In this document: positions 2,895 to 17,378 of the stretch, one piece after another
Numbering within the stretch: position 1 is the stretch's first letter
How the letters are laid out: each line of letters opens with the position of its first letter
From: Candidatus Bathyarchaeota archaeon BA1
Lineage (GTDB): Archaea; Thermoproteota; Bathyarchaeia; Bathyarchaeales; Bathyarchaeaceae
Assembly (NCBI GenBank): GCA_001399805.1
Contig: LIHJ01000001.1
Coordinates: 1 to 17,378, forward strand
Direction of reading: 5' to 3'
Length of the DNA: 17,378 nt
Made by a program: the position numbers and the translations under genes
The notes under the pieces: model-generated
What the model was told of the DNA's origin: nothing
The model's input: the letters and a program-made list of their open reading frames with translations, nothing else
Database searches by the model: none

Positions 2895-4802
2895 ATGAGC
2901 ATCGATTATCCCAATATTGGCTTAAAGGCGGGACTTGAGGTCCACCAACAATTGGACACAAGAAGTAAACTCTTTTGTTCATGTAGGCCCCAGCTTTTCA
3001 AAGAGGAGCCTGAAATCACGTTCTTAAGGAGGTTAAGACCTACCCAAAGTGAGCTGGGTCAGGTTGATCCCGCCGCCCTCTTTGAGTTTCAGAAGGGTGT
3101 AAAAATTCTCTATGAGGCGAGCAGGGAGACCTCATGCCTGGTGGAGATGGATGAGGAGCCCCCCCATGACCTCGATCAAGAGGCGGTGGAGATCGCCCTT
3201 ATCGCGGCTTTGATGATAGGGGCAAAACCCGTGGATGAGATCCATGTGATGCGCAAAACAGTCATCGATGGGTCTAACACGACGGGCTTCCAGAGGACAT
3301 GCGTCATCGCCCTCGGCGGTGAGGTGGACATTGAGGGGGAAAGGGTTCCTATACAGCACGTGGGCCTTGAGGAAGACGCCGCCAGAAAGATGGGGGAGGA
3401 GGGCCCCATCATTCGGTATCGCATTGATCGCCTTGGGATCCCTCTTATTGAGGTTACGACGGCCCCTGTCATCTACTCTCCCCAAGAGGCGGAGAAAATC
3501 GCGCTGGCTATTGGACGTATTTTGAGGGCTACGCGGAAGGTTAAGCGAGGCTTAGGGACGATTCGCCAAGACCTGAACATATCCATTCCGGAGGGTGCCC
3601 TCATCGAGATCAAAGGTGTCCAGGAGCTGGAGCTGGTCTCCAAGGTGATCGAGTACGAGGTTCAGCGCCAGCTTAGTCTCCTTAAGATACGGGATGAGCT
3701 GAAAAATCGAGGAGTAACGGAAGAGGACGTGAGAGATGAGTTTGTGGATGCGACCCCAATCTTTGAGCAGACAAAGTGTCGGGTTGTCCAAAGGGCTCTA
3801 AGCCAAAATCAACGGGTGTTAGCTGTTGGGTTGCCCAGATTCGCTGGATTGCTTAAAATGGAGCTGGCGCCCGGGATGCGACTTGGGTCCGAGATGGCGG
3901 ACATCGCCCACTTTTGGGGGAGGGTTGGGGGCATCTTCCACACTGATGAGTTGCCAGCCTATGGAATAACAGCGGAGGAAGTTGATCAACTTAAGCGCCT
4001 CATGAAGGCGGGATTGCATGACGCCGTAGTGTTTGTTGCAGACACCCAGGAAAATGCGGCTGATGCCCTAGGGGCTGTGGTGCAAAGGGCAAGAGAGGCG
4101 GTTAAAGGTGTTCCTGAAGAGACGCGTGCAGCCAATCTAGATGGAACCACCCGATACATGCGGCCGAGACCTGGGGCTGCTCGGATGTATCCTGAGACGG
4201 ATGTCCCCCCGATCCAATTAACAAGAGAGTATATTGAAGAATTGCGCGTTCGCCTTCCTGAATTACCTGAGCAGAAAATGGGTCGCTTGATGAGGCAGTA
4301 TGGGTTGAATCTGAAGCTGGCAGAGCAGATTCTCGATTCCGAGTATGCGGACCTCTTTGAGGAAATAGCTCAATCAACCAAGGTTTCGCCCACGGTTATC
4401 ACTGTTGCGTTAACTGAAACCCTGAAGGCGTTGAGGCGGGATGGGGTTGATGTCGAGAAGATAGTTGATGATCAGATCCGGGAACTATTCCGCCTCATAG
4501 ACTCGGAGGAAACCGCCAAGGAGGCGATACCAGACATCATTGTTTGGCTTTCGAAGCATGAGGGCGCAAGGGTGAAAGATGCCATAGAAAGCCTAGGATT
4601 AGGGGTGATCTCTAAAAGGGAGCTGGAAATAATGATCGATGATTTGATGAAGGAAAACAGAAGCGTCATACAAGAGAGAGGAAGGGGGGCCTTTGGTCTC
4701 CTAATGGGCATGATAATGAAGAGGGTTAGGGGAAGAGTAAAAGCTGAGTTAGTGAGTGAAATCTTAAAGAGAAAGCTGGAGAAGTGTATTCAACGGTTTT
4801 AA
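2895..4802 (+). CDS. gatE: Glu-tRNA(Gln) amidotransferase subunit E
   Basis: A 635-residue GatE, the tRNA-binding kinase/amidase subunit that activates and amidates Glu-tRNA(Gln) using ammonia from GatD. The start of the catalytic domain reads GLKAGLEVHQQLDTRSKLFC (residues 9-28) and includes a C-x-C at 28-30. IDRLGIPLIEVTT (177-189), GTIRQDLNISI (221-231) and IEIKGVQEL (237-245) are hallmarks of GatB/GatE. An AspRS-like GAD insertion follows at about 280-410, then the conserved RYMRPRPGAARMYPETD segment and a helical tail with a YqeY-like end. The insertion separates GatE from bacterial GatB. A GCGGAGG site lies inside the 3' end of gatD. No odd residues were seen, and length is normal. Confidence 0.97.
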   Translation: MSIDYPNIGLKAGLEVHQQLDTRSKLFCSCRPQLFKEEPEITFLRRLRPTQSELGQVDPAALFEFQKGVKILYEASRETSCLVEMDEEPPHDLDQEAVEIALIAALMIGAKPVDEIHVMRKTVIDGSNTTGFQRTCVIALGGEVDIEGERVPIQHVGLEEDAARKMGEEGPIIRYRIDRLGIPLIEVTTAPVIYSPQEAEKIALAIGRILRATRKVKRGLGTIRQDLNISIPEGALIEIKGVQELELVSKVIEYEVQRQLSLLKIRDELKNRGVTEEDVRDEFVDATPIFEQTKCRVVQRALSQNQRVLAVGLPRFAGLLKMELAPGMRLGSEMADIAHFWGRVGGIFHTDELPAYGITAEEVDQLKRLMKAGLHDAVVFVADTQENAADALGAVVQRAREAVKGVPEETRAANLDGTTRYMRPRPGAARMYPETDVPPIQLTREYIEELRVRLPELPEQKMGRLMRQYGLNLKLAEQILDSEYADLFEEIAQSTKVSPTVITVALTETLKALRRDGVDVEKIVDDQIRELFRLIDSEETAKEAIPDIIVWLSKHEGARVKDAIESLGLGVISKRELEIMIDDLMKENRSVIQERGRGAFGLLMGMIMKRVRGRVKAELVSEILKRKLEKCIQRF

Positions 4803-5788: not shown

Positions 5789-6280
5789 GTGGACATGGGG
5801 AAGATCCAAGTGCATATTAAGGCTCCCTTCGGCGAAATTGTTGTGGAAGGGAATAACCCTCAAGAAATTCTCGAAATGATAAGGGCGATACCCCCAGACT
5901 TTATGAGCGAGATGGGCGGCTTAATCTCCGCAAAATTTGTTCCGCCTATAAAGGCTCAGCTGGAGGGAATAGTCGAGCTCACCACCGAGGGACCCATTAT
6001 AACCACTAGGCAGGAGCTCACCCACTATGAGGCGATTGGACTCGTCCTGTACGCTTCAGATGAGAAGAGGAACACCGCTGCGCACATTAGCCGACTGATT
6101 GAGGTAAGCGGAATCAAATGTCAGGTTCCAGCCAGACTCAACGAGATGGCAAAGCGTGCAATCGTGTTTAAGCCAAATCCAGCCATGCCCGAATGGAAAC
6201 TCACCACACAGGGGGAAAAATGGATCACAGACGAAGTTTTGCCAAAATTAAGAGGGACGATTGAAGGACAGCAATTATAG
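5789..6280 (+). CDS. two-domain winged-helix protein, paralogue 1
   Basis: A 163-residue protein, the first of four related genes. Residues 5-33 (QVHIKAPFGEIVVEG, then a helix) form a small beta-beta-alpha unit. A middle segment carries EGPIITTRQELTHYEAIGLV at about 68-87. Residues about 92-155 look like a winged helix (HISRLIEVSG, then ARLNEM, then WKLTTQGEKWITDEVLPKLR). It shares the PFG motif with paralogue 2 and forms a subgroup with it. The GTG start has AGGA 7 nt upstream; ATG 5795 is an alternative. It stands apart from the other three by 448 nt, with a broken gene between, so it likely has its own promoter. The family is unknown to me; DNA binding is inferred from the fold. Confidence 0.85.
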   Translation: MDMGKIQVHIKAPFGEIVVEGNNPQEILEMIRAIPPDFMSEMGGLISAKFVPPIKAQLEGIVELTTEGPIITTRQELTHYEAIGLVLYASDEKRNTAAHISRLIEVSGIKCQVPARLNEMAKRAIVFKPNPAMPEWKLTTQGEKWITDEVLPKLRGTIEGQQL

Positions 6281-6285
6281 TTCTG

Positions 6286-6566
6286 TTATCTTCCTTCATG
6301 ATATTCGTCATAAGCTTTAAGCGCAGCTTTAATGTATTCTTTTAGCTTTTCAGGTGGAGTCTCCGGACTGATCGCTAGCGTTATAGAAAGTGGAGCTACA
6401 GGCATTCTAGGGATTTTTGGTGAAATTTTTGCAATGGGTTTGATTTTTACTTGTGTTAGTTTAGTGGCTTAGCGAGAGTAAGCACATCCTCAAGTTTAAA
6501 AGCGTACACGAGTATATCTAAGAAAGCATTAAGTTTCCTAACACGTGGAATATGTAGCAGACGCAT
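6286..6566 (-). pseudogene. frameshifted unidentified small gene
   Basis: From ATG (6566-6564), with an AAGG about 7 nt upstream, the first frame reads MRLLHIPRVRKLNAFLDILV and continues to LTLAKPLN before a TAA at 6458-6456. A second frame, open from 6468, continues KIKPIAKISPKIPRMPVAPL and ends in a helix, PPEKLKEYIKAALKAYDEYH, with a TAA at 6288-6286. Joined by one shift at about 6456-6468, it would be near 93 residues. Both parts look coding. I do not recognise the family. It is divergent from paralogue 2 and shares the operator-like DNA between them. The alternative is a real 39-residue ORF from ATG 6405. Confidence 0.45.
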
Positions 6567-6595
6567 TAAAAACCTTTTTTGTTTTATTAACGTTA

Positions 6596-6675
6596 AATTA
6601 CGTTATAATGTAATTCGATGTTATTACGTTTAAAATGATGGAAAATTACCTTGTAGCGTTTTACATCGAATTACA
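6596..6675. promoter_or_regulatory. cluster of AATTAC half-sites, candidate operator
   Basis: A 20-bp near-palindrome at 6596-6615 has arms AATTACGTTA and TAATGTAATT, matching at 9 of 10 positions. TGTAATTCGATGT at 6609-6621 recurs exactly inverted as ACATCGAATTACA at 6663-6675, 41 bp apart. A further AATTAC is at 6644-6649 and a TTACGTT at 6624-6630. The cluster lies just upstream of the TATA-like box at 6686 and between two divergent genes. Cooperative binding of a winged-helix regulator is a reasonable inference. The repeats are seen directly; the AT-rich background lowers their significance. Confidence 0.55.
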
Positions 6676-6685
6676 TAAAACCGAT

Positions 6686-6695
6686 AAATTTAAAA
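6686..6695 (+). promoter_or_regulatory. TATA-like box for the winged-helix/nurA/herA operon
   Basis: AAATTTAAAA lies 34 nt before the ATG at 6729. A start about 25 nt downstream (near 6715) would leave a short leader carrying GGAGG (6718-6722). It would drive paralogues 2-4 and possibly nurA and herA. Confidence 0.45.
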
Positions 6696-6728
6696 GTCTC
6701 TTCGCATATTTATATTCGGAGGTTTCCC

Positions 6729-7187
6729 ATGAAGATTCGAGTAGTAATAAAGAGACCCTTTGGAGATGTTGAATTAGAAGGAGACAGCCTTGATGAACTT
6801 ATTGAGGGCTTGCAAGCATTTCCAGATTGGCTTGCTGTGATAGACAAGCTCATCATCAGTCCTGAAATGCCAGCTGGAACACAAGAACGCCTTACGGGGC
6901 TCATAGAATTTTCTAAAGACGGCCCGCTTGTAATTGTGCCAAGAGAAAAGATAAGCGATAAAGAAGCCATCGGATTGCTTCTCTACGCTCAAGACCCGGA
7001 AGGGCTTGAGCCGAAGGAGGTTGGTCGGCTCTTAGATCTTAGTGGTCGACCATCTATGGGTTTCGGTTCTCGATTAAGCGAGATAAGACGTGAAGGTCTC
7101 GTAATTAAAGAGGACAACTTGTACAGGTTATCGGCTGCTGGAAGAAAATGGACTGAGGACCTAGTTTCAAGACTGCGGGGTGGTTAG
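6729..7187 (+). CDS. two-domain winged-helix protein, paralogue 2
   Basis: A 152-residue protein read from ATG, with GGAGG 6 nt upstream. Residues 2-30 (KIRVVIKRPFGDVELEGDS and a helix) match the beta-beta-alpha unit of paralogue 1. GLIEFSKDGPLVIVPREKIS (57-76) and KEAIGLLLYA (78-87) match the shared middle segment. Residues about 92-150 form the winged helix: EPKEVGRLLDLSG, then SRLSEIRREGLV, then LYRLSAAGRKWTEDLVSRLR. It is the first gene of a tight run; its stop abuts the GTG of paralogue 3 with no gap. A TATA-like box and the AATTAC cluster lie directly upstream, so it is the best candidate to bind that DNA. Family unknown to me. Confidence 0.88.
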   Translation: MKIRVVIKRPFGDVELEGDSLDELIEGLQAFPDWLAVIDKLIISPEMPAGTQERLTGLIEFSKDGPLVIVPREKISDKEAIGLLLYAQDPEGLEPKEVGRLLDLSGRPSMGFGSRLSEIRREGLVIKEDNLYRLSAAGRKWTEDLVSRLRGG

Positions 7188-7691
7188 GTGGGCAGCGAGG
7201 AAGCCAAGTTGGAGCTTTCTGTGAAATATAGAGACATGGAAGTAAAATTCTCTGGGGATAGAGATGAAGTTATTCGGTCATTCTTTGACTTTCTAAGCAA
7301 GATTTTTCCTGCATTTGAACTCATGTCTAGTTTGACATTAACCATCGATCTGGAAGATTTACTGAAACGTGCAGCTGAATTTATGGTCTTCACGCCTGAA
7401 GGCTCTGTGTTAAAAGTTCCAAAGGAACAATTACGAGAGAGAGAAGCCATCATTGCACATCTTGTCAAGACATATATAGGTTATCGAACAGGAAAGCTCG
7501 TAAAGGACTCTCTTTCCATCGCTGACATCCTCACTCTTACTGGAGGTAAACCAGGAACTGTTGCAGCTCGTTTGAGTGAAATGGCTGATCTAGGTTGGGT
7601 AGAACGAGTTGGGCGTGGCGAATATCGAGTAACCACTCTTGGAGTAAAATCATTTATCGATGAGATTTTACCAGAAATCAAGTCTCGATAG
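7188..7691 (+). CDS. two-domain winged-helix protein, paralogue 3
   Basis: A 167-residue protein starting at GTG right after the previous stop. The N-terminal unit (KLELSVKYRDMEVKFSGDRD, 7-26) is followed by a longer helix, FFDFLSKIFPAFE (32-44), which it shares with paralogue 4 but not 1 and 2. The middle segment has FTPEGSVLKVPKEQLREREA (68-87). The winged helix runs from about 108 to 165: SLSIADILTLTGG, then TVAARLSEMADLGWVERVGR, then EYRVTTLGVKSFIDEILPEI. The wing with RVGRGEYRVT is classic. Acidic and basic patches alternate; no catalytic motif is seen. It lies 10 nt before paralogue 4. Function is not known. Confidence 0.88.
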   Translation: MGSEEAKLELSVKYRDMEVKFSGDRDEVIRSFFDFLSKIFPAFELMSSLTLTIDLEDLLKRAAEFMVFTPEGSVLKVPKEQLREREAIIAHLVKTYIGYRTGKLVKDSLSIADILTLTGGKPGTVAARLSEMADLGWVERVGRGEYRVTTLGVKSFIDEILPEIKSR

Positions 7692-7692
7692 G

Positions 7693-7702
7693 TGTAATTA
7701 CA
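7693..7702. promoter_or_regulatory. perfect 10-bp palindrome at the paralogue 4 start
   Basis: TGTAATTACA fills the gap between paralogues 3 and 4 and ends on the A of the ATG. Each half is the same TGTAATT/AATTACA unit as at 6609-6615 and 6669-6675. It may be a second operator that acts on translation or transcription, or a chance match in AT-rich DNA. Confidence 0.35.
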
Positions 7703-8202
7703 TGAGCGTCCAACCTAAGCTGAGAGTTCATCTGGAGTGCGGAGATGCAAGAGTGGATTTTGAAGGCGACGCAGATGAAGTATTCAAAGCCTTCACAGAA
7801 TTTTTAAATAAAATTTATCCTAGCTTTGAAGTTGCGCGTAAACTTATTTTTATACCAGATATCATTGGGCTTTCTGAAGAAATTGCTGGACTTATAGAAA
7901 TCGCTCCGGAAGGGCCAATGCTTGTCTTAGGTCGAGAGCTGCCAGCGGATGAAACCATCTGTCTTGCTCTTCTAGGGTCGGATATTGGAAATAGATTAGG
8001 TAAATTAAGTAAGGCTTCTTTATCTTTAGACGAGCTGGCAAAAGTCACGGGAAAGGCACATAAAACCATCATGAATCAGTTGCCCTGGATGATTGATGAG
8101 GGGCTCATTGAAAGAGTTGGCAAAGGTGAATATAGGATAACTAGTTTGGGGATTAAGCGAGCTCAAAACGTCATTAAGGATTATAAGGCTTCAAGAAAGT
8201 GA
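7702..8202 (+). CDS. two-domain winged-helix protein, paralogue 4
   Basis: A 166-residue protein from ATG 7702, chosen over an upstream in-frame ATG at 7660 because AGGTG sits 7 nt before it and the family homology begins here. The N-terminal unit is KLRVHLECGDARVDFEGDAD (6-25), then a helix with FTEFLNKIYPSFE (31-43), close to paralogue 3. The middle has IEIAPEGPMLVLGRELPADE (65-84). The winged helix at about 106-160 reads SLSLDELAKVTGK, then IMNQLPWMIDEGLIERVGK, then EYRITSLGIKRAQNVIK. It is the nearest paralogue to nurA, 36 nt upstream, so it is the strongest candidate for a NurA-HerA partner. No nuclease or ATPase motif is seen. Confidence 0.88.
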   Translation: MSVQPKLRVHLECGDARVDFEGDADEVFKAFTEFLNKIYPSFEVARKLIFIPDIIGLSEEIAGLIEIAPEGPMLVLGRELPADETICLALLGSDIGNRLGKLSKASLSLDELAKVTGKAHKTIMNQLPWMIDEGLIERVGKGEYRITSLGIKRAQNVIKDYKASRK

Positions 8203-8238
8203 GAAGATGCTCCTTTTGCCACTGACTGGTGAAAGCTA

Positions 8239-9327
8239 TTGATTAAACAATTGGGTTCCACAGCATCAAAATGTGGCTTTCCCCAATCCCTTGATGACCT
8301 ACAGCTTCCACAGAGGCTCATTGAACTTAGTATCAGGTCCATGAAAAACATGGGTGGGGAATACTTTCAGCCCTATGAAATCGTCTATCATGACGACGCT
8401 GTAGTAACCTCGGATGATGTTGTGCCCTTCTTTCTGCATAACAACTCCTGCACCCTGCAGTCGATCCCATTGAAACCCGTCCACGATGATACCACGATCG
8501 TGGCCATCGACGTCTCCAGTATAAAGATTGGCGAAACCGAGACTGGCATATTGTGTGCAGTTCGTGGGGCCATCGTTTGGAAGGAGGGGAGCCAATATAG
8601 GTATCTTCGGCTGGGGCCCTTCCCCTTCCACGTCACCGAGGAAAACAAGAGGGAGATTTATAACCTGCTTAGGCGATACTACTTTGATGCTTCTAAGGAA
8701 GTGAACGCCCCCAGCCTCATCCATATGCAGGCTCGGATCGGCAACCTGCTGGAGCGGTGGATTCAGATGGGAATCTGCAGCTCCTCGCAGGGGAGCATCA
8801 TTTTGTGGGATGGCTCGCTAACGGCTGGGACCGTCGACAGCCCCGTCAATGTTGTTTCTCAGCTCCTAGAAATGGCGAGGGGGCGCCTTAACACAATCTT
8901 GGCATTTTCTAAAATGACTCGGCTGAGGCTCTTGGGGCATCGGCTCACCGACCTCCTATGGAAGTGCCAGCCTCCATGCTTGCTGGAGATCGATGGCTTC
9001 TCCATCCCATCTGGTCCCGTACGCTTTCTCGGGAACATCTATGTGGCGAGGCTCAGTGAGGGGAGCTGCTCGTTCCGATTGGACATCGACCGGCGAGTTC
9101 CTAAGGAGCAGGGGATGGAGGCCATGCAAAGGCTCCTAGGAAACGACTTGATTACTCAAAGTTATCCAGAAACCCTACGCTTGGCCCACATCTATTCAAC
9201 CTTCACCGCCAACGAGGTGATAGGCATCCAGCGCTTCATCGCCCAGCAATGTGGATTGAAAATTGTTACACGACCAAATGTGCGTAGGCTCCTTTTTGGA
9301 CCCTTCGGAAAGGGCCCTGAGGGGTGA
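8239..9327 (+). CDS. nurA: NurA 5'-3' nuclease
   Basis: A 362-residue NurA nuclease, which works with the HerA translocase to resect 5' ends at double-strand breaks. The metal-binding core is visible: Asp91 in IVAIDVSS, an acidic Glu near 172 (LLERWIQ), Asp191 in ILWDGSL, and Asp283 in LDIDRR. Tyr309 and His317 in SYPETLRLAH keep the 8-residue spacing of the conserved Tyr/His pair in Sulfolobus NurA. The C-terminus has the basic RPNVRRLLFG stretch. The TTG start is preceded by GGTGA; no ATG gives the full N-terminus. It follows paralogue 4 by 36 nt and precedes herA by 10 nt, a clear operon. All expected catalytic residues appear intact. Confidence 0.93.
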   Translation: MIKQLGSTASKCGFPQSLDDLQLPQRLIELSIRSMKNMGGEYFQPYEIVYHDDAVVTSDDVVPFFLHNNSCTLQSIPLKPVHDDTTIVAIDVSSIKIGETETGILCAVRGAIVWKEGSQYRYLRLGPFPFHVTEENKREIYNLLRRYYFDASKEVNAPSLIHMQARIGNLLERWIQMGICSSSQGSIILWDGSLTAGTVDSPVNVVSQLLEMARGRLNTILAFSKMTRLRLLGHRLTDLLWKCQPPCLLEIDGFSIPSGPVRFLGNIYVARLSEGSCSFRLDIDRRVPKEQGMEAMQRLLGNDLITQSYPETLRLAHIYSTFTANEVIGIQRFIAQQCGLKIVTRPNVRRLLFGPFGKGPEG

Positions 9328-9337
9328 GAGCTAGGGG

Positions 9338-10789
9338 TTGCGGCTTTATAGGAAAGAGGGTAACACGGTTCAAATCCTCAGCTTCCCAGACGAGAATATC
9401 GAAAAGGGGGACTACCTCCTCATCGAGGAGCCAAAGGCCAACGAGGGCTTGATCACCCAGATAGTCGATATCCAATTTGCCAATGTTCCGGGCATTTTGG
9501 AGGAGCTCCTACGAGATTCCAGCGACGATCAGCATTTATATGGGGATGACCTCGACCCGCTGGAGGTGGCCTCCCACATCACCTACATACAAGACGCAAG
9601 AATGCTCATCTGCAAGATCCGTGGAGCCATCGAAGACGGGAAGCTGAGCGTAAACACATCGTGGCTCCCATCACGCTCCCAATCCAGCATCAAAAAGCTT
9701 CCCACATCCTCCCTACTAACCCTAGCAAAAATTAGTGAGGGCCTTCCCATCAATCTTGGCGAGACGAAAGAGTCCCTTCCGCTCACCATTGATGCTCATG
9801 CGCTTGATGGAAAATTGAGCATTATCACTGGAAAAAAGGAAACGGGGAAATCCCACCTCTCCAAGCTGCTGGTTCTGGGTCTCATTGATTATGGGGCCAT
9901 AGTGGTGGTCCTTGACCTAAACGGGGAGTACATCAACCTAGGTTTTTCATCAAATGGTGGAAAGAGCGAGTATCACAACAAGGTTCACGTTTTCACCCCT
10001 GGGGCTAATCTTAAGGTGAACCTCGCTCAAATGGATCTGAGGGTTATGCTAAACATCCTCATCCACGCCCTCAATCTACCTGGCACCTCGGCTCGAGAGT
10101 TTAGACGGATATGGCAGTTCCTCGATGGGCGATGCACCCTCACCCTACGCGAGCTTGGTGAGGCCATTAGGAATTGGAAGTGTAATCAGCATGTGCGAGA
10201 CGCCCTCTTCTCCCGCTACTATAGCCTATTAAACTCCGGCTTCTTCACCGATAATCTGGCGGAGGCAACGACCATGGAGGAAAATTTTTCAATTCGGAAT
10301 GGTGGGGCATTTATCATAAATTTGCAGGATGTTTCGTCCGTGGATCGACAAATCGTGGTGGAATATACACTTGGGAAGCTGGTCGAGCTCCTGACTCAAT
10401 GGAAGATAAAAGCGATTTTTCTATTTGCCGAAGAAGCCCATCTCTATCTTCGCGAAACCTATTGGGACGATATTGTTACGAGGATGAGGCATTTTGGGGT
10501 CTTCACCACCTTCGTAACGAATCAGCCCGACACCATACGAGAAAACATCTATCGCCAAGCCGACAACATCTTCCTCTTCAACTTCACCAACGAACACGAC
10601 CTTGAAACCGTTTCGAGGGCAGCGAAGGTGGACGCGGATACCGTGAAGTCCATTGCAAGAGACCTGCCGCCCCACCACTGTCTCCTACTTGGTAAGGCGG
10701 TGAAAGACTTCCCCGTCGTCGTGAGAGTGAGAGCCCTCGACGTCCAAACCATGGGACAAACGAGGCTCTTCTTCGCCAACAAAAACTAA
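9338..10789 (+). CDS. herA: HerA-like hexameric DNA translocase
   Basis: A 483-residue HerA/FtsK-type ATPase that pumps DNA to NurA. Residues 1-100 fit the N-terminal HAS-barrel. The Walker A motif is GKKETGKS at 165-172, followed by VVVLDLNGEY (189-198). Walker B is AIFLFAEEAH at 359-368, with the catalytic Glu at 365 or 366. FVTNQPDTIRENIYRQADNI (392-411) holds the polar sensor and a likely arginine finger region. The C-terminal FPVVVRVRAL strand is typical. The start is TTG with GGGGTGAG about 9 nt upstream, inside the nurA stop. Length is normal for archaeal HerA. It closes the winged-helix/nurA/herA operon; the next gene is 141 nt away. Confidence 0.95.
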   Translation: MRLYRKEGNTVQILSFPDENIEKGDYLLIEEPKANEGLITQIVDIQFANVPGILEELLRDSSDDQHLYGDDLDPLEVASHITYIQDARMLICKIRGAIEDGKLSVNTSWLPSRSQSSIKKLPTSSLLTLAKISEGLPINLGETKESLPLTIDAHALDGKLSIITGKKETGKSHLSKLLVLGLIDYGAIVVVLDLNGEYINLGFSSNGGKSEYHNKVHVFTPGANLKVNLAQMDLRVMLNILIHALNLPGTSAREFRRIWQFLDGRCTLTLRELGEAIRNWKCNQHVRDALFSRYYSLLNSGFFTDNLAEATTMEENFSIRNGGAFIINLQDVSSVDRQIVVEYTLGKLVELLTQWKIKAIFLFAEEAHLYLRETYWDDIVTRMRHFGVFTTFVTNQPDTIRENIYRQADNIFLFNFTNEHDLETVSRAAKVDADTVKSIARDLPPHHCLLLGKAVKDFPVVVRVRALDVQTMGQTRLFFANKN

Positions 10790-10930: not shown

Positions 10931-11242
10931 ATGGTTTATTGTACTAAGTGTGGCGCCAAGAATGAAGACGATGCCATACTGTGCGTGAAGTGTGGGGCAA
11001 GCCTGCAGACAGGAGCCCACCCATCTCGAAGGTACGAACACCAACACACAGAAGAAGAGTGTTTCGGGATCCCTAGGGGTGGCGCAATTGCGGGTGTAAT
11101 CTTCGGCATAATAATCATATTTTTTGGGCTGTCTTGGCTTATGGGTTTTAAGTTTTGGAAAGTCTTTTTGCCGCTTATTATAATCGTCTTTGGAATATTG
11201 GTCCTTGCTGGCGCCCTTTACGGGCTTCGCCGCAGACCTTAA
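10931..11242 (+). CDS. zinc-ribbon membrane protein
   Basis: A 103-residue protein. It begins MVYCTKCGAKNEDDAILCVK with Cys4, Cys7, Cys18 and Cys21 in two C-x-x-C knuckles, a standard zinc ribbon. A linker with a charged HQHTEEE stretch leads to two predicted membrane spans at about 51-71 and 77-95, then a basic tail, LRRRP. The layout is common in archaea; the zinc ribbon should face the cytoplasm. GGAGAGGG lies about 8 nt before the ATG. The gene is tail to tail with the next - strand gene, with a single base between the stops. Its function is unknown. A degenerate zinc-ribbon gene at 13447-13650 may be a distant relative. Confidence 0.85.
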   Translation: MVYCTKCGAKNEDDAILCVKCGASLQTGAHPSRRYEHQHTEEECFGIPRGGAIAGVIFGIIIIFFGLSWLMGFKFWKVFLPLIIIVFGILVLAGALYGLRRRP

Positions 11243-13689: not shown

Positions 13690-14142
13690 TCATTTTTCAT
13701 AACGGAACCTTTCTAATTCGCCCCAATGCTTTTTGAGAAATAAGCGGAGGGTTCGTGTCAAGTCGTAGGTTTCCGCCTCTTCTAAGGGTATCCATCGAGC
13801 CTCCAACACGTCTGAGGCAGGCTTTAAGGTCCCGCCCTTAGGTCGAGCCAAAAACTGCAACAAAACATAATGATATCTTAGGCGCCCGTTCTCGCCCATG
13901 ACCATGCTGTCCATCACGTCCATGGGCCGGTTGACCACAACCTCGATGTCTAAGCCGCACTCTTCCTTCACCTCTCGAATAATGGCGTCTTGAACCCTCT
14001 CCCCCAACTCCACAACTCCGCCGGGGATGCTCCACTTCCCCTTCCCCGGCTCAACTCCCCTCTTCACTAGAAGAAGCTTACCCTCCTGTAGGATAAGGGC
14101 CCCAACACCCACAATAGGCCTTGTAGGATACTCCCGACCCAA
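13690..14142 (-). CDS. Nudix hydrolase
   Basis: A 150-residue Nudix hydrolase, which cleaves nucleoside diphosphates linked to another group. The Nudix box is complete: Gly42, then Glu48, Arg56-Glu57, Glu60-Glu61 and Gly63 in GGVVELGERVQDAIIREVKE with ECGL following. It is preceded by GKGKWSIP, typical of the ADP-ribose or MutT-like branches. The start is TTG with AAGGAGG 7-8 nt upstream. It heads the - strand operon and shares a 100-nt divergent region with mre11. The exact substrate cannot be told from sequence. An NTP or nucleotide-sugar role is possible, and the location beside a repair gene may be coincidence. Confidence 0.93.
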   Translation of the reverse strand: MGREYPTRPIVGVGALILQEGKLLLVKRGVEPGKGKWSIPGGVVELGERVQDAIIREVKEECGLDIEVVVNRPMDVMDSMVMGENGRLRYHYVLLQFLARPKGGTLKPASDVLEARWIPLEEAETYDLTRTLRLFLKKHWGELERFRYEK

Positions 14143-14191: not shown

Positions 14192-14243
14192 CTAGCCATA
14201 CCTACTAAAGTTGAAGAGTTTACGCAAATCGAAGGTCTGGAGC

Positions 14244-15452
14244 ATGAAACCCTTCAGCTTTGTTCACGTTGCCGATCTGCATCTGGGGTATGCACAGTAT
14301 AACCTGGATGTTCGACGTGAGGACTTTGATGTAGCATTCGGAGAGGTAGTGGAGAAAACCATCGAGTTGAAGCCTAATTTCACGATCATTGCAGGCGACC
14401 TATTTCAGCACGCCCGTCCCTCCAACATCACCCTTGAGACAGCCATAACCAATTTTAGGCGGCTTAGAGACGCTGGAATAACGGTGCTTGCCGTGGATGG
14501 CTCCCATGATTCTGCGCCCAATGTGATCACGGGCACCATCCTCAACCCGCTGGATAAGGCTGGCCTTATTCATTATCTACCCCGCCACGAGGGAGCCTCT
14601 TGGCGAAATGAGAATTGTTACGTTTATGGCATACCCAACCTTCGAACCAAGCGAAGAACCGAGGAGCTGCTCCCCACCTTTCTGTGGGAGAACAGGCCAA
14701 CGCCTGACCCTTCCCTCTTCAACATATTTGTCTTCCACATGGCCTTGGACATTCCCAGTGTGAAGCCCCCCTTGATGGAGGCGGAGGCTCAACCCGAATT
14801 GCTTCCTGACGGCTTCAATTATTATGCGGGCGGTCACGTGCACATGCCACACAAGATCCCCATCAAGAATGGCCTCCTCGTTTATAGCGGATGCACCGAA
14901 ACTGTGAACTATGAGGATGCCCTGATTGAGAAGGGCTTCTATCATGTTGAGGTGAATGAAAAAGGTGAACCCGAACCTCATCACATCAAGCTCAAAAACC
15001 CCCGCCGCTTCATTGTTTTGGATCACGACTACACAGGCTTAACCCCCACAAAAATAACAGAGAAGGCAACACAACTCGTGAAGGAAGTTGATGAAGTTGG
15101 GGTGGTGATTGTCCCCATACTGCGGGGTGTATTGCCCTCGGAAGCCAGTCGTGGGGAGGTCGACCTCTCCAAAGTCAGAAGTGCTGCTGAAAAGGCTCTT
15201 TTCGTGCATCCCCTCCTGCGACTAAGGGAAACAGAGGTTCCGGAGGAGGTCATACGCTCCATCTTTGAGGGGGAGTTGAAGGACCTGAAAACGAAGGCAT
15301 TTGAGTACTTCTTAGAAATCTTCTCGGAGCGCCACACCAAGGAGGAGGCTGAGAAGATAGCGAGACTCGCTGTTAATCTCATCGAGCCCCTTGTGAGGAG
15401 GGAGGAAACCAAGGTGAAGGAGGCCTTGGAGGCATTCGCCCATGAGGGTTAA
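14244..15452 (+). CDS. mre11: Mre11-like nuclease, with a motif III change
   Basis: A 402-residue Mre11, the 3'-5' exonuclease/endonuclease partner of Rad50. The phosphodiesterase motifs are ADLHLG (Asp11, His13), AGDLFQHARPSN (Asp52), DGSHDSAPN (Ser87, His88), VFHM (His165) and AGGHVHMPHK (His198, His200). The family normally has Asn in motif III (GNHD), where it binds a metal; here it is Ser. The C-terminal part from about 330, with KEEAEKIARLAVNLIEPLVR, is the Rad50-binding helical region. I chose ATG 14244, with AAGGT 8 nt upstream; an in-frame TTG at 14211 would add 11 residues before the conserved start and is a leaderless alternative. The stop overlaps rad50 by 11 nt. Confidence 0.93.
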   Translation: MKPFSFVHVADLHLGYAQYNLDVRREDFDVAFGEVVEKTIELKPNFTIIAGDLFQHARPSNITLETAITNFRRLRDAGITVLAVDGSHDSAPNVITGTILNPLDKAGLIHYLPRHEGASWRNENCYVYGIPNLRTKRRTEELLPTFLWENRPTPDPSLFNIFVFHMALDIPSVKPPLMEAEAQPELLPDGFNYYAGGHVHMPHKIPIKNGLLVYSGCTETVNYEDALIEKGFYHVEVNEKGEPEPHHIKLKNPRRFIVLDHDYTGLTPTKITEKATQLVKEVDEVGVVIVPILRGVLPSEASRGEVDLSKVRSAAEKALFVHPLLRLRETEVPEEVIRSIFEGELKDLKTKAFEYFLEIFSERHTKEEAEKIARLAVNLIEPLVRREETKVKEALEAFAHEG

Positions 15453-17378
15453 GGCCGTTCAACTGGAAAACATCCGATCCCACACCAAGACGATGATCCC
15501 CTTCGCCAGGGGGTTCAATTGCCTCGTCGGTGGCTTGGGGTGTGGGAAGTCAAGTATCCTCTACGCCATCGACTTCGCCCTCTTCGGAGAACCGCTGGGT
15601 AGAAGCTACGAATACCTCCTTAGGGAGGGGGCGGACATCGGCAAGGTAGTAGCTCAATTCATTCATGGAGGAAAAACCTACACCATCTCGAGAGCCCTCC
15701 GAAGGCGGGGGAAGGGCATCAGCCAAGACACAGAGCAACTCAAACTCTTTGAGGACGAGAAACTCATCGCCAGCGTAAAAAGCGAGGCAGTTGCTGAACA
15801 GTTAAAGGCCATCACCGGCCTCGACAAGGACCTCTTCCGAGAAGTTGTCTGGGTGAGACAAGAGCGTTTGAAAGAGTTACTGAATGTGGCCCCACGAGAA
15901 CGCCAAAAAAGACTAGACCAACTGTTCGGACTTTCCGATTATGAAGTGGCATGGAGTGGTCTGGCTGGGGTCCAAAAAGAATACGAGGTGGAAAAGGGCG
16001 TCTACGAGCGCGACTTCGACGTGATTGGAATGGAGAAACTTCAGAAGGACTATAACAAGGCAGTGGAAGAATTTGCGTTAATTGAAGGCGAGCTTGAGGA
16101 CTTGAGGAAAAAATTCGTCCAAGCCGAAGCCTCCTTCAGCGAAGTGAATTTCCGCCTACAAAGCCTCGAAGAGTTAAGAAAACAAACGGAAGAGCTACAA
16201 AGGAAAGAGGCCCAACTGCAGACAAACATCGCCAACACCGAAGACACCTGCGCGAGATTAGCGGAAGAAATCGAACGGAAGAACGTTTCCATCGATGACT
16301 TAGAAGAACGCCTAAAATCCATGGAGACCCAGGAAAGGTCTCATCGAGACAGGCTTCAGAAAGCGGGAGTAAAACCGGATCGAACGGTTGAGGAGCTGAG
16401 AAAATACCTTGCCGCGCTCGAAGAACAGATGAGGAGTGTTGGCGGCGAGCAGGAGGTTGTGAAAAAAGATATGCTCACCTCTCAAAACCGTATCTCAAGC
16501 TTGACAACTGAAAGCAGGTGCCCCTTGTGTCTACAGAACATTGCTGGAGAGTATAAGAGCCGACTGCTGGAGCATCTTCATAGAGAAAACACTGAGCGAG
16601 GAAGAAGGCTGGCTGAGCTTCAAAGGGACCTCGACGAATTGGAAAGGCTGTATAGCATAGTCAACCTCGCCGTCTCGATTTTGCAACCCCTCATTCCTCA
16701 AGTCGAAGGTCTGAAAAGCCGAGTTGCCGAGGAACGGGAATCCTTGAGCAGACTTTCGGCGGAATTTGAAGAGAGGCAACGACAAGAGAAGGCATTTCGA
16801 GATCAGCTCAGCACGATACGTGCAGAAATCGCGAAATTTGACATCGCTGAGCTGGAGTCTGCACGAAAACTTCGTGATGAGGCCTTCATGCGCTATTCCA
16901 ACGTAAAGCATAGGCTGGAAGCAACGGGGAACCGGAAAAGGGATGTCACGTTAAGAATGGATGAGCTCAAGGAACGCCTAGACCACGCTCAACAAAAAAT
17001 GGAGCGGATGGAGAAAATCAAGAGGCTTCTCGTGATCATGGAGGGAATACGAGGTGCCTACAGAAGCATCCAGCCCAAGTTGCGGAGAGAATTCGTTACC
17101 TATCTGGAACGGATGGTTCAGCAGGTTTTGGACGGACTCATTGGGGCGGCGGGACCCACGCTAATCGTGAGGATAGACGGGGACTACACGCCTCTCACCC
17201 GGAGCGAGGAGGGATACGAACGAGATGTCTCAAACCTCTCTGGCGGGGAGCGGACCCTCCTCGCCTTCGCCTACCGCCTCGGCCTCGGTCAACTAATCAT
17301 GCAGTCGAGGACTGGGCACGGGTTCTACACGCTACTCCTCGACGAACCAACAGAAAGCCTTGGTAGGGAGGACGGCTC
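15442..17378 (+). CDS. rad50: Rad50 ATPase, 3' end beyond the window
   Basis: Open from ATG 15442 through the window end (645 residues seen). It is an ABC-type ATPase with coiled coils that tethers and opens DNA ends with Mre11. Walker A is GGLGCGKS (30-37), followed by SILYAIDFALFG; the usual Asn before the last Gly-x-Gly-Lys is Leu. The Q-loop is WVRQERLKELL with Gln140. Coiled coils run about 165-359 and 364-555, and the zinc hook is CPLC at 360-363. The signature LSGGE is at 599-603 and Walker B LLLDEPT at 631-637 with Asp634 and Glu635. In Pyrococcus furiosus the hook lies near 444 of 882, so this protein is short; I estimate about 700 residues in all. Its ATG lies 11 nt inside the mre11 stop, so the two are translationally coupled. 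Confidence 0.96.
   Translation, partial: MRVKAVQLENIRSHTKTMIPFARGFNCLVGGLGCGKSSILYAIDFALFGEPLGRSYEYLLREGADIGKVVAQFIHGGKTYTISRALRRRGKGISQDTEQLKLFEDEKLIASVKSEAVAEQLKAITGLDKDLFREVVWVRQERLKELLNVAPRERQKRLDQLFGLSDYEVAWSGLAGVQKEYEVEKGVYERDFDVIGMEKLQKDYNKAVEEFALIEGELEDLRKKFVQAEASFSEVNFRLQSLEELRKQTEELQRKEAQLQTNIANTEDTCARLAEEIERKNVSIDDLEERLKSMETQERSHRDRLQKAGVKPDRTVEELRKYLAALEEQMRSVGGEQEVVKKDMLTSQNRISSLTTESRCPLCLQNIAGEYKSRLLEHLHRENTERGRRLAELQRDLDELERLYSIVNLAVSILQPLIPQVEGLKSRVAEERESLSRLSAEFEERQRQEKAFRDQLSTIRAEIAKFDIAELESARKLRDEAFMRYSNVKHRLEATGNRKRDVTLRMDELKERLDHAQQKMERMEKIKRLLVIMEGIRGAYRSIQPKLRREFVTYLERMVQQVLDGLIGAAGPTLIVRIDGDYTPLTRSEEGYERDVSNLSGGERTLLAFAYRLGLGQLIMQSRTGHGFYTLLLDEPTESLGREDG

Follow-up and report, generated by a model that had tools for sequence, protein, structure and literature searches.

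A stretch of 17,378 nucleotides (nt) from Candidatus Bathyarchaeota archaeon BA1, hereafter the window, raises the question of why four related genes for small winged-helix proteins, p1 to p4, stand in front of nurA and herA, the genes for a nuclease and a translocase. The way in which archaeal NurA–HerA is called to work, its activation following break recognition being described as elusive in a review (PMC7690668), may be approached by way of the small proteins of the p1–p4 family. The family accompanies three very different groups of NurA–HerA, its type II half is mostly missing where NurA–HerA is missing, and conserved operator-like DNA is located at the shared promoter. The link of the family to NurA–HerA is real and strong. 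As judged from sequence, there is about an even chance that these proteins are dedicated control proteins of NurA–HerA.

All six genes are on the plus strand. The type I paralogues are p1 (positions 5789–6280; 163 amino acids, aa), which is composed of a beta-beta-alpha (bba) unit, a middle segment with EGP and EAIGL, and a winged helix and has an upstream region of its own, and p2 (6729–7187; 152 aa), the first gene of a packed run. This run continues with the type II paralogues p3 (7188–7691; 167 aa; GTG start) and p4 (7702–8202; 166 aa; ATG start, the longest open reading frame, ORF, beginning at 7660), followed by nurA (8239–9327; 362 aa) and herA (9338–10789; 483 aa). In the ORF list, the gaps are 448 nt for p1–p2, 0 for p2–p3, 10 for p3–p4, 36 for p4–nurA, and 10 for nurA–herA. 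Four paralogues at these positions, with gaps of 0–10 nt among p2–p4, 36 nt to nurA, and 10 nt to herA, had been claimed by the initial annotation and were confirmed by the ORF list and BLAST, and the division into the subgroups p1/p2 and p3/p4 was upheld by a tree of 149 family members. In this tree, type I consists of a p1 clade, a p2 clade, and five divergent rows, and type II of p3, p4, a third clade, and four stray rows. BLAST gave 33% identity for p1–p2 (E 2e-25), 40% for p3–p4 (E 7e-34), and E values from 2e-8 (p2–p4) to 0.002–0.003 (p2–p3) for the four cross-subgroup pairs, and the profiles of the two types were aligned end to end (hhalign 99.5%, E 1e-22); by these comparisons, the paralogy of p1–p4 is beyond chance. 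The p1 gene is set apart by both the 448 nt before p2 and its separate clade within type I, and p1 as a default part of the NurA–HerA unit was rejected.

The two enzymes were identified by Pfam matches over the cut-off, NurA with PF09376 (30.8 bits versus 21) and HerA with DUF87 (52.2 bits versus 23.2; Walker A and B intact). When nine loci were aligned, the P-loop GKxxxGKS and the FLFAEEAH motif of HerA were conserved, and the acidic residues D91, D191, D282, and D284 of NurA were invariant, making these four the candidate catalytic residues. The best match of HerA in PDB was HerA itself (4d2i, E 1.2e-11); a PDB search with NurA alone gave matches of chance level only.

The association was examined in 100 HerA-centered loci of the class Bathyarchaeia (hereafter the class), taken from the 153 HerA-positive genomes among 256; twelve genomes represented by L001–L013, near-identical relatives, fragments, and some others were left out by hand (L, G, and P numbers are handles for loci, genomes, and proteins). 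Type I and type II genes were accepted at E < 1e-15, with up to 12 kilobases (kb) read, and the gene O, which is divergent from nurA, within 1.8 kb. Except for L084, where the contig ends, NurA is directly upstream of HerA in all the loci (99/100). Among the 95 loci with at least 1.6 kb of upstream sequence, 92 carry type I/II or O upstream (52 type I/II and 80 O), and the three with neither are L074, L157, and L161. The type I/II genes in these 52 loci are located upstream and on the same strand as herA, and none was detected downstream or on the other strand at E < 1e-15. An array of type I/II is located within 7.5 kb in 37 of the 71 loci having at least 7.5 kb upstream, and where both types are upstream of herA, type I is always the farther (36/36 class loci). 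The layout of a bba unit with a winged helix recurs in O and in a further upstream gene, U, which are relatives of one another (hhalign 97.6%); that they are also akin to type I/II is graded as likely, not as shown, because the profile similarity is weak (hhalign 18.7–50%). No match to O was found in PDB.

The count of 153 HerA-positive genomes underestimates the number with NurA–HerA, because diverged pairs escaped the HerA profile. When 28 chosen genomes were searched with Pfam, a diverged NurA and HerA were detected beside the array in G009, G014, and G015, and also in 10 of the 12 genomes searched of the G226–G253 group, but no such pair beside the array in G245, G253, and G016. The idea that NurA–HerA is absent from the genomes of L009, L014, and L015 was thus rejected. 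By BLAST, the pairs were divided into three groups, A (the window, L010, and L273), B (L014, L222, and L228), and C (L009, L271, L272, L274, and L275). NurA proteins within a group match at about 100–644 bits, those of A match B or C at 28 bits or less, and those of B and C match each other at about 47–70 bits; the family association is kept with all three groups in spite of this little or no detectable similarity. Two genomes, G010 and G229, possess beside the winged-helix-associated NurA–HerA a second, canonical NurA–HerA–Mre11–Rad50 set (L239 and L240), of which NurA matches any of the groups at 34 bits or less; no family member was found around these sets in the 9 and 16 kb read.

In two loci of the G226–G253 group, both with enzymes of group B, the place that type II occupies in relatives, between type I and nurA, is taken by four to five differing tandem genes for mini winged-helix-like proteins of 80–108 aa (L228 7862–9240; L222 9223–10712), on the strand opposite to nurA–herA. 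The five mini genes of L228 gave Pfam helix-turn-helix matches, passing the cut-offs of MarR, IclR, ArsR, or HTH_24. Outside the class, type II, a divergent O, and nurA–herA were present in all five loci read (L271–L275), the array being on the strand opposite to nurA–herA in four of them. Together with gatD–gatE, a type II gene, a divergent O, and nurA–herA of the window's group were observed in L273 (969–9000), which belongs to another lineage. As a separate observation, the HerA P-loop region is interrupted by an intein-like stretch in L272 (2–1156), L274 (1–852, minus strand), and L275 (6633–8001), where herA was read only in part; the Intein_splicing match is over the cut-off of 35.8 bits for L275 (42.6) and just below it for L274 (35.7) and L272 (33.1). 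An extra gene of 227–237 aa was also noted between O and the family array in L272 (2763–3467), L274 (2493–3176), and L009 (9161–9874); its N-terminus looks helix-turn-helix-like by eye, and the L272 copy gave no Pfam match.

The intergenic DNA between O and nurA has the layout TATTGtTTATTGtATTGnnCAT-n-TTGnnCATGCACAACA-TTTAAATA. The pattern TTGnnCA-N7-CATGYnCAAY (consensus dyad TTGTGCAT-N7-ATGCACAA) was found by a box resembling TTTAAATA in 70 of the 80 O–nurA intergenic regions, and a second element, TGATTGRRCAA, in 59, either element being present in 76. Inverted repeats with 8-nt arms were detected in 34 of the 80 regions against 3.9 in shuffles. A matrix made from the 70 dyad sites gave 128 matches in the 2.8 Mb scanned, 126 of them at O or nurA, counting most sites on both strands and in overlapping loci. 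Outside the class, L271 and L275 carry a related dyad, TTTGTTGATTGAACAATCAACAAC, in the same position, with 2 and 3 of 200 shuffles as good.

The arrays of p2 type showed another pattern. In 21 of 23 such arrays (type I-II-II, the same followed by U or O, type I-I-II-II, and type I-II-U; groups picked after the pattern had been seen), two or more ACGT are located upstream of a TATA-like box within 195 base pairs (bp) around the start, against 0.35–0.74 ACGT per region in shuffles, and the commonest spacing of ACGT before type I-led arrays was 10–11 bp (17/40). In the window itself, an ACGT pair (6589–6603) and an inverted repeat with 21-nt arms (6601–6621 and 6663–6683), including a perfect core of 14 nt (6608–6621 and 6663–6676), precede the TATA-like stretch AAATTTAAAAG (6686–6696, plus strand), which ends 32 nt before the p2 start codon and is a putative TATA box. 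Operator-like dyads are thus present at the predicted promoters of O–nurA and of p2-type arrays, not at those of U-led arrays.

The relation to HerA was further examined in 61 genomes of one lineage (G079–G139), of which 34 are positive and 27 negative with the window-type HerA profile. O was detected in 33 of the 34 positives and in none of the 27 negatives (one match of E 5e-4 being ignored), as expected because O adjoins nurA. Type II (E < 1e-40) was detected in 27 of the 34 positives and in one of the 27 negatives, G119 (Fisher p 1.5e-9, kinship ignored). The distance between type II and herA, compared in 25 of these 27 genomes, is at most 12 kb in nine and 69–230 kb on the same contig in seven, and the two genes are on different contigs in nine; linkage alone cannot therefore explain the co-absence, since type II is unlinked in 16 of the 25. 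On a tree of GatE from 42 genomes, the HerA label has to change five times, starred branches forcing at least four of these changes, and type II is present in 0 of the 23 HerA-negative rows (G119 is outside the tree). A family member is retained in 21 of the 27 negatives, which weakens a NurA partnership for all members of the family: in the 11 negatives with the locus read, the member is type I, beside gatE in nine, and type I thus survives without NurA–HerA. Pfam NurA was not found in 10 of the 11 HerA-negative genomes searched, G105 having one. Co-loss of U with HerA was rejected, since G134, without this HerA, retains U and type I beside gatE (L180).

The second conserved neighbor of the array is gatD–gatE. 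In the window, the plus-strand genes at 1556–2893 and 2895–4802, outside the module, are those which we take from their sequence to be gatD and gatE, and the same pair is located before the array in many relatives, some with nurA–herA far away. For 15 of the 37 linked arrays, the stretch read is free of gatE, which never occurs there without the array. The gatDE pair is a rival neighbor, and part of the pattern is due to shared synteny. The link to nurA–herA that the initial annotation had proposed proved to be lasting, in 92 of 95 loci if O is included, with three enzyme groups and beyond the class, but is not exclusive, as type I survives without HerA and gatDE is a second neighbor. The outcome named beforehand as refuting the link, homologues scattered without relation to nurA or herA, was not what the profile search and locus counts gave.

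From the observed gene order, paralogy, association in and beyond the class, co-absence, and conserved dyads, we infer a scheme of control, the conjectural parts of which are binding to the dyads, oligomerization, co-transcription, whether control means repression or activation, and the signal. In this scheme, p2–p4, and less surely p1, would be sequence-specific winged-helix DNA-binding proteins dedicated to the NurA–HerA unit, and the bba N-terminal unit would join them into homo- or hetero-oligomers. Their targets would be arrays of operators, both in the promoter of their own operon and in that of nurA–herA, and the binding would time the production of the DNA-end-processing NurA–HerA machine. 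For the window, a single promoter ahead of p2, its palindromic sites lying immediately before the TATA-like stretch, would drive p2–p3–p4–nurA–herA as an autoregulated operon. In many relatives, the job may be split between a U–type I–type II array near gatDE and the divergent O, which has its promoter region and a conserved dyad in common with nurA–herA. Among the roles proposed in the initial annotation (regulators, DNA-end sensors, or loading factors), that of regulators is favored because of the operator-like DNA at O–nurA and at p2-type arrays.

A number of observations weigh against this scheme of control. A simple local regulator would need neither three or four paralogues nor the four to five mini genes present in L222 and L228. 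No O gene was found in the window, and the arms of its inverted repeat match the ACGT pattern of the relatives just loosely. Outside the class, the inverted repeats of L272, L273, and L274 are of chance level, being matched by 33, 140, and 113 of 200 shuffles. By matrix scan, the O operator was not found before type I/II arrays, and few of the remaining groups reach two or more ACGT, namely 5 of the 26 trios led by U, 2 of the 28 type II pairs that lack type I, and 1 of the 88 O genes; a single operator for the whole family was thus rejected. Class-wide, no match to type I/II was obtained in 11 of the 153 HerA-positive genomes and only a weak one in five others, and about 73 of the 103 other genomes have a strong type I/II match, some of these holding diverged pairs that were missed.

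The local-regulator reading accounts for the divergent O, the dyads, and the co-absence and is the best one at hand, but the production of several paralogues together with the enzymes is better accounted for if they are physical components of NurA–HerA. They would then form a stoichiometric, hetero-oligomeric DNA-binding adaptor, loading HerA–NurA at ends or sites or gating NurA, and the operator-like DNA would reflect mere autoregulation. Such a partnership is a possibility that we entertain tentatively and with doubt. It agrees with the co-directional packing of the window array with nurA–herA and the upstream, same-strand position of type I/II in 52 of 95 class loci, with the several paralogues kept side by side, with the association to three diverged NurA–HerA groups, and with the general absence of type II, even if unlinked, where this HerA is absent; it agrees poorly with an O that in most of the class is divergent from nurA and has a conserved dyad in common with it, as is usual for local regulators, with the array on the opposite strand in four of the five loci outside the class, and with the 11 genomes, of 153, that retain HerA but gave no type I/II match. 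A related and rather unlikely extension is that type I and type II, together with U and O in many lineages, would form a hetero-oligomeric, sequence-specific DNA-binding complex with two tasks, the control of its own genes and the recruitment of NurA–HerA to defined chromosomal sites; this complex would have stayed, from Bathyarchaeia to other lineages of the phylum, while the NurA–HerA beside it diverged or was exchanged, as a system of targeted resection or segregation.

Two other explanations concern the neighborhood itself. If the family were an independent or gatDE-linked regulatory family, its place beside nurA–herA would be functionless inherited synteny, as might be thought from the many genomes where gatE adjoins the array and nurA–herA is elsewhere or absent, and from the NurA-less genomes of L231–L233, where gatE and a lone type I stand in 18 kb without type II. 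This is improbable in view of the co-absence of a mostly unlinked type II with this HerA, the 15 of 37 linked arrays without gatE, and the O–nurA dyads; moreover, the same accessory genes stand with enzymes of little or no NurA similarity by BLAST, and plain inherited synteny is therefore a poor explanation. Still further from expectation, and in our judgment very improbable, is a defense island, in which an antiviral NurA–HerA nuclease–translocase would be silenced or sensed by winged-helix regulators, as in HerA-based antiphage systems. HerA matches the PADLOC HerA and mads_8 models (NCBIfam HerA_antiphage being far below the cut-off), but these matches fall on the shared HerA ATPase core. 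The separate NurA–HerA–Mre11–Rad50 set of G010 and G229 and the patchy loss in one lineage also fit a defense role; presence in 153 of 256 genomes, often in one neighborhood with gatDE or NUDIX genes, is unlike mobile islands, and mre11 is nearby in the window and in 17 of the 100 loci, within the 6 kb read past herA.

The genes downstream of herA are context to the module. Directly after herA, the window has a zinc-ribbon protein gene (10931–11242), with a membrane segment by eye, for which only three profile matches, its own copy included, were obtained among the loci searched. A minus-strand gene (13690–14142), presumably for a NUDIX hydrolase, has a homologue downstream of herA in 50 of the 92 loci with more than 2 kb downstream. 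On the plus strand, mre11 (14211–15452) begins 3.4 kb past herA, with opposite-strand genes in between, and is followed by an ORF from 15442 to 17376, at the contig end, that we take to be rad50.

The family is large, widespread, and apparently undescribed, being unnamed as a whole in Pfam and NCBIfam. Its named relatives are bathyarchaeal (in 16 loci, 15 are bathyarchaeal and one is titled only Thermoproteota), an origin that they also suggest for the window. A profile of 43 members detected 1791 proteins at E <= 0.001 among the 7999 scored. Of the 256 class genomes, 220 have members at E <= 0.001, though ten only weak ones (E > 1e-6), and of 398 genomes taken from the phylum, 160 have members at E <= 1e-6; 87 of the 160 are outside the class set, 70 of them with matches at E <= 1e-15. 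Apparent absences of genes may be gaps, because the genomes are mostly metagenome assemblies. The initial annotation knew of no described partner of HerA–NurA of this kind, and none was found in the titles and abstract openings of the literature on HerA/NurA and the FtsK–HerA superfamily, a coverage that takes in few of the subscription papers.

All four proteins are below every Pfam and NCBIfam cut-off, including those of the MarR, ArsR, IclR, TrmB, and HVO_A0261 families. The winged-helix matches of the family are weak yet consistent, all in the C-terminal third; p1 and p2 have no usable match to named winged-helix families, and p3 and p4 have sub-cut-off matches only. For the N-terminal bba unit, which is predicted from the reading of sequence and alignment, no trusted relative was found; a UPF0045 match had an E value of 0.0036. 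Kinship to the CRISPR-related CARF/Csa3 proteins is unsupported because the matches cover little more than the winged helix. One relative, P0154, is named "predicted transcriptional regulator" in one source.

Among known proteins, the family's best sequence match in PDB is AspA, the winged helix-turn-helix partition protein of plasmid pNOB8 (E 9.9e-6), which is aligned within the winged helix only (profile positions 104–164). The N-terminal half is unmatched, there is no full-length homology, and the neighbor here is a HerA translocase with a nuclease, not ParA/ParB. Likeness to the Pfam winged helix-turn-helix domain HVO_A0261_N (PF25213) is weak, seen for some members, and again confined to the winged helix: it is the commonest weak Pfam match (13 of 43 members, best E 1.3e-5), with 19.8 bits for p3 and 20.6 for p4 where the cut-off is 35 and no match for p1 or p2, and the relatives P0006 and P0013 bear the precomputed label PF25213.2. 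With the local regulators of MarR/ArsR/TrmB type that are divergent from their target, the family shares the winged-helix C-terminus, and O the divergent position and the dyad by a TATA-like box, but p1–p4 add the N-terminal bba unit and come as sets of paralogues. For Sulfolobales, transcription factor B3, a regulator different from p1–p4 and O, is reported to co-regulate the herA operon following DNA damage (PMC9905601). The canonical archaeal HerA–NurA–Mre11–Rad50 operon for DNA end resection has in common with the window NurA directly before HerA, the conserved motifs, and mre11–rad50 nearby, whereas the window has winged-helix paralogues before nurA and mre11–rad50 outside the packed run.

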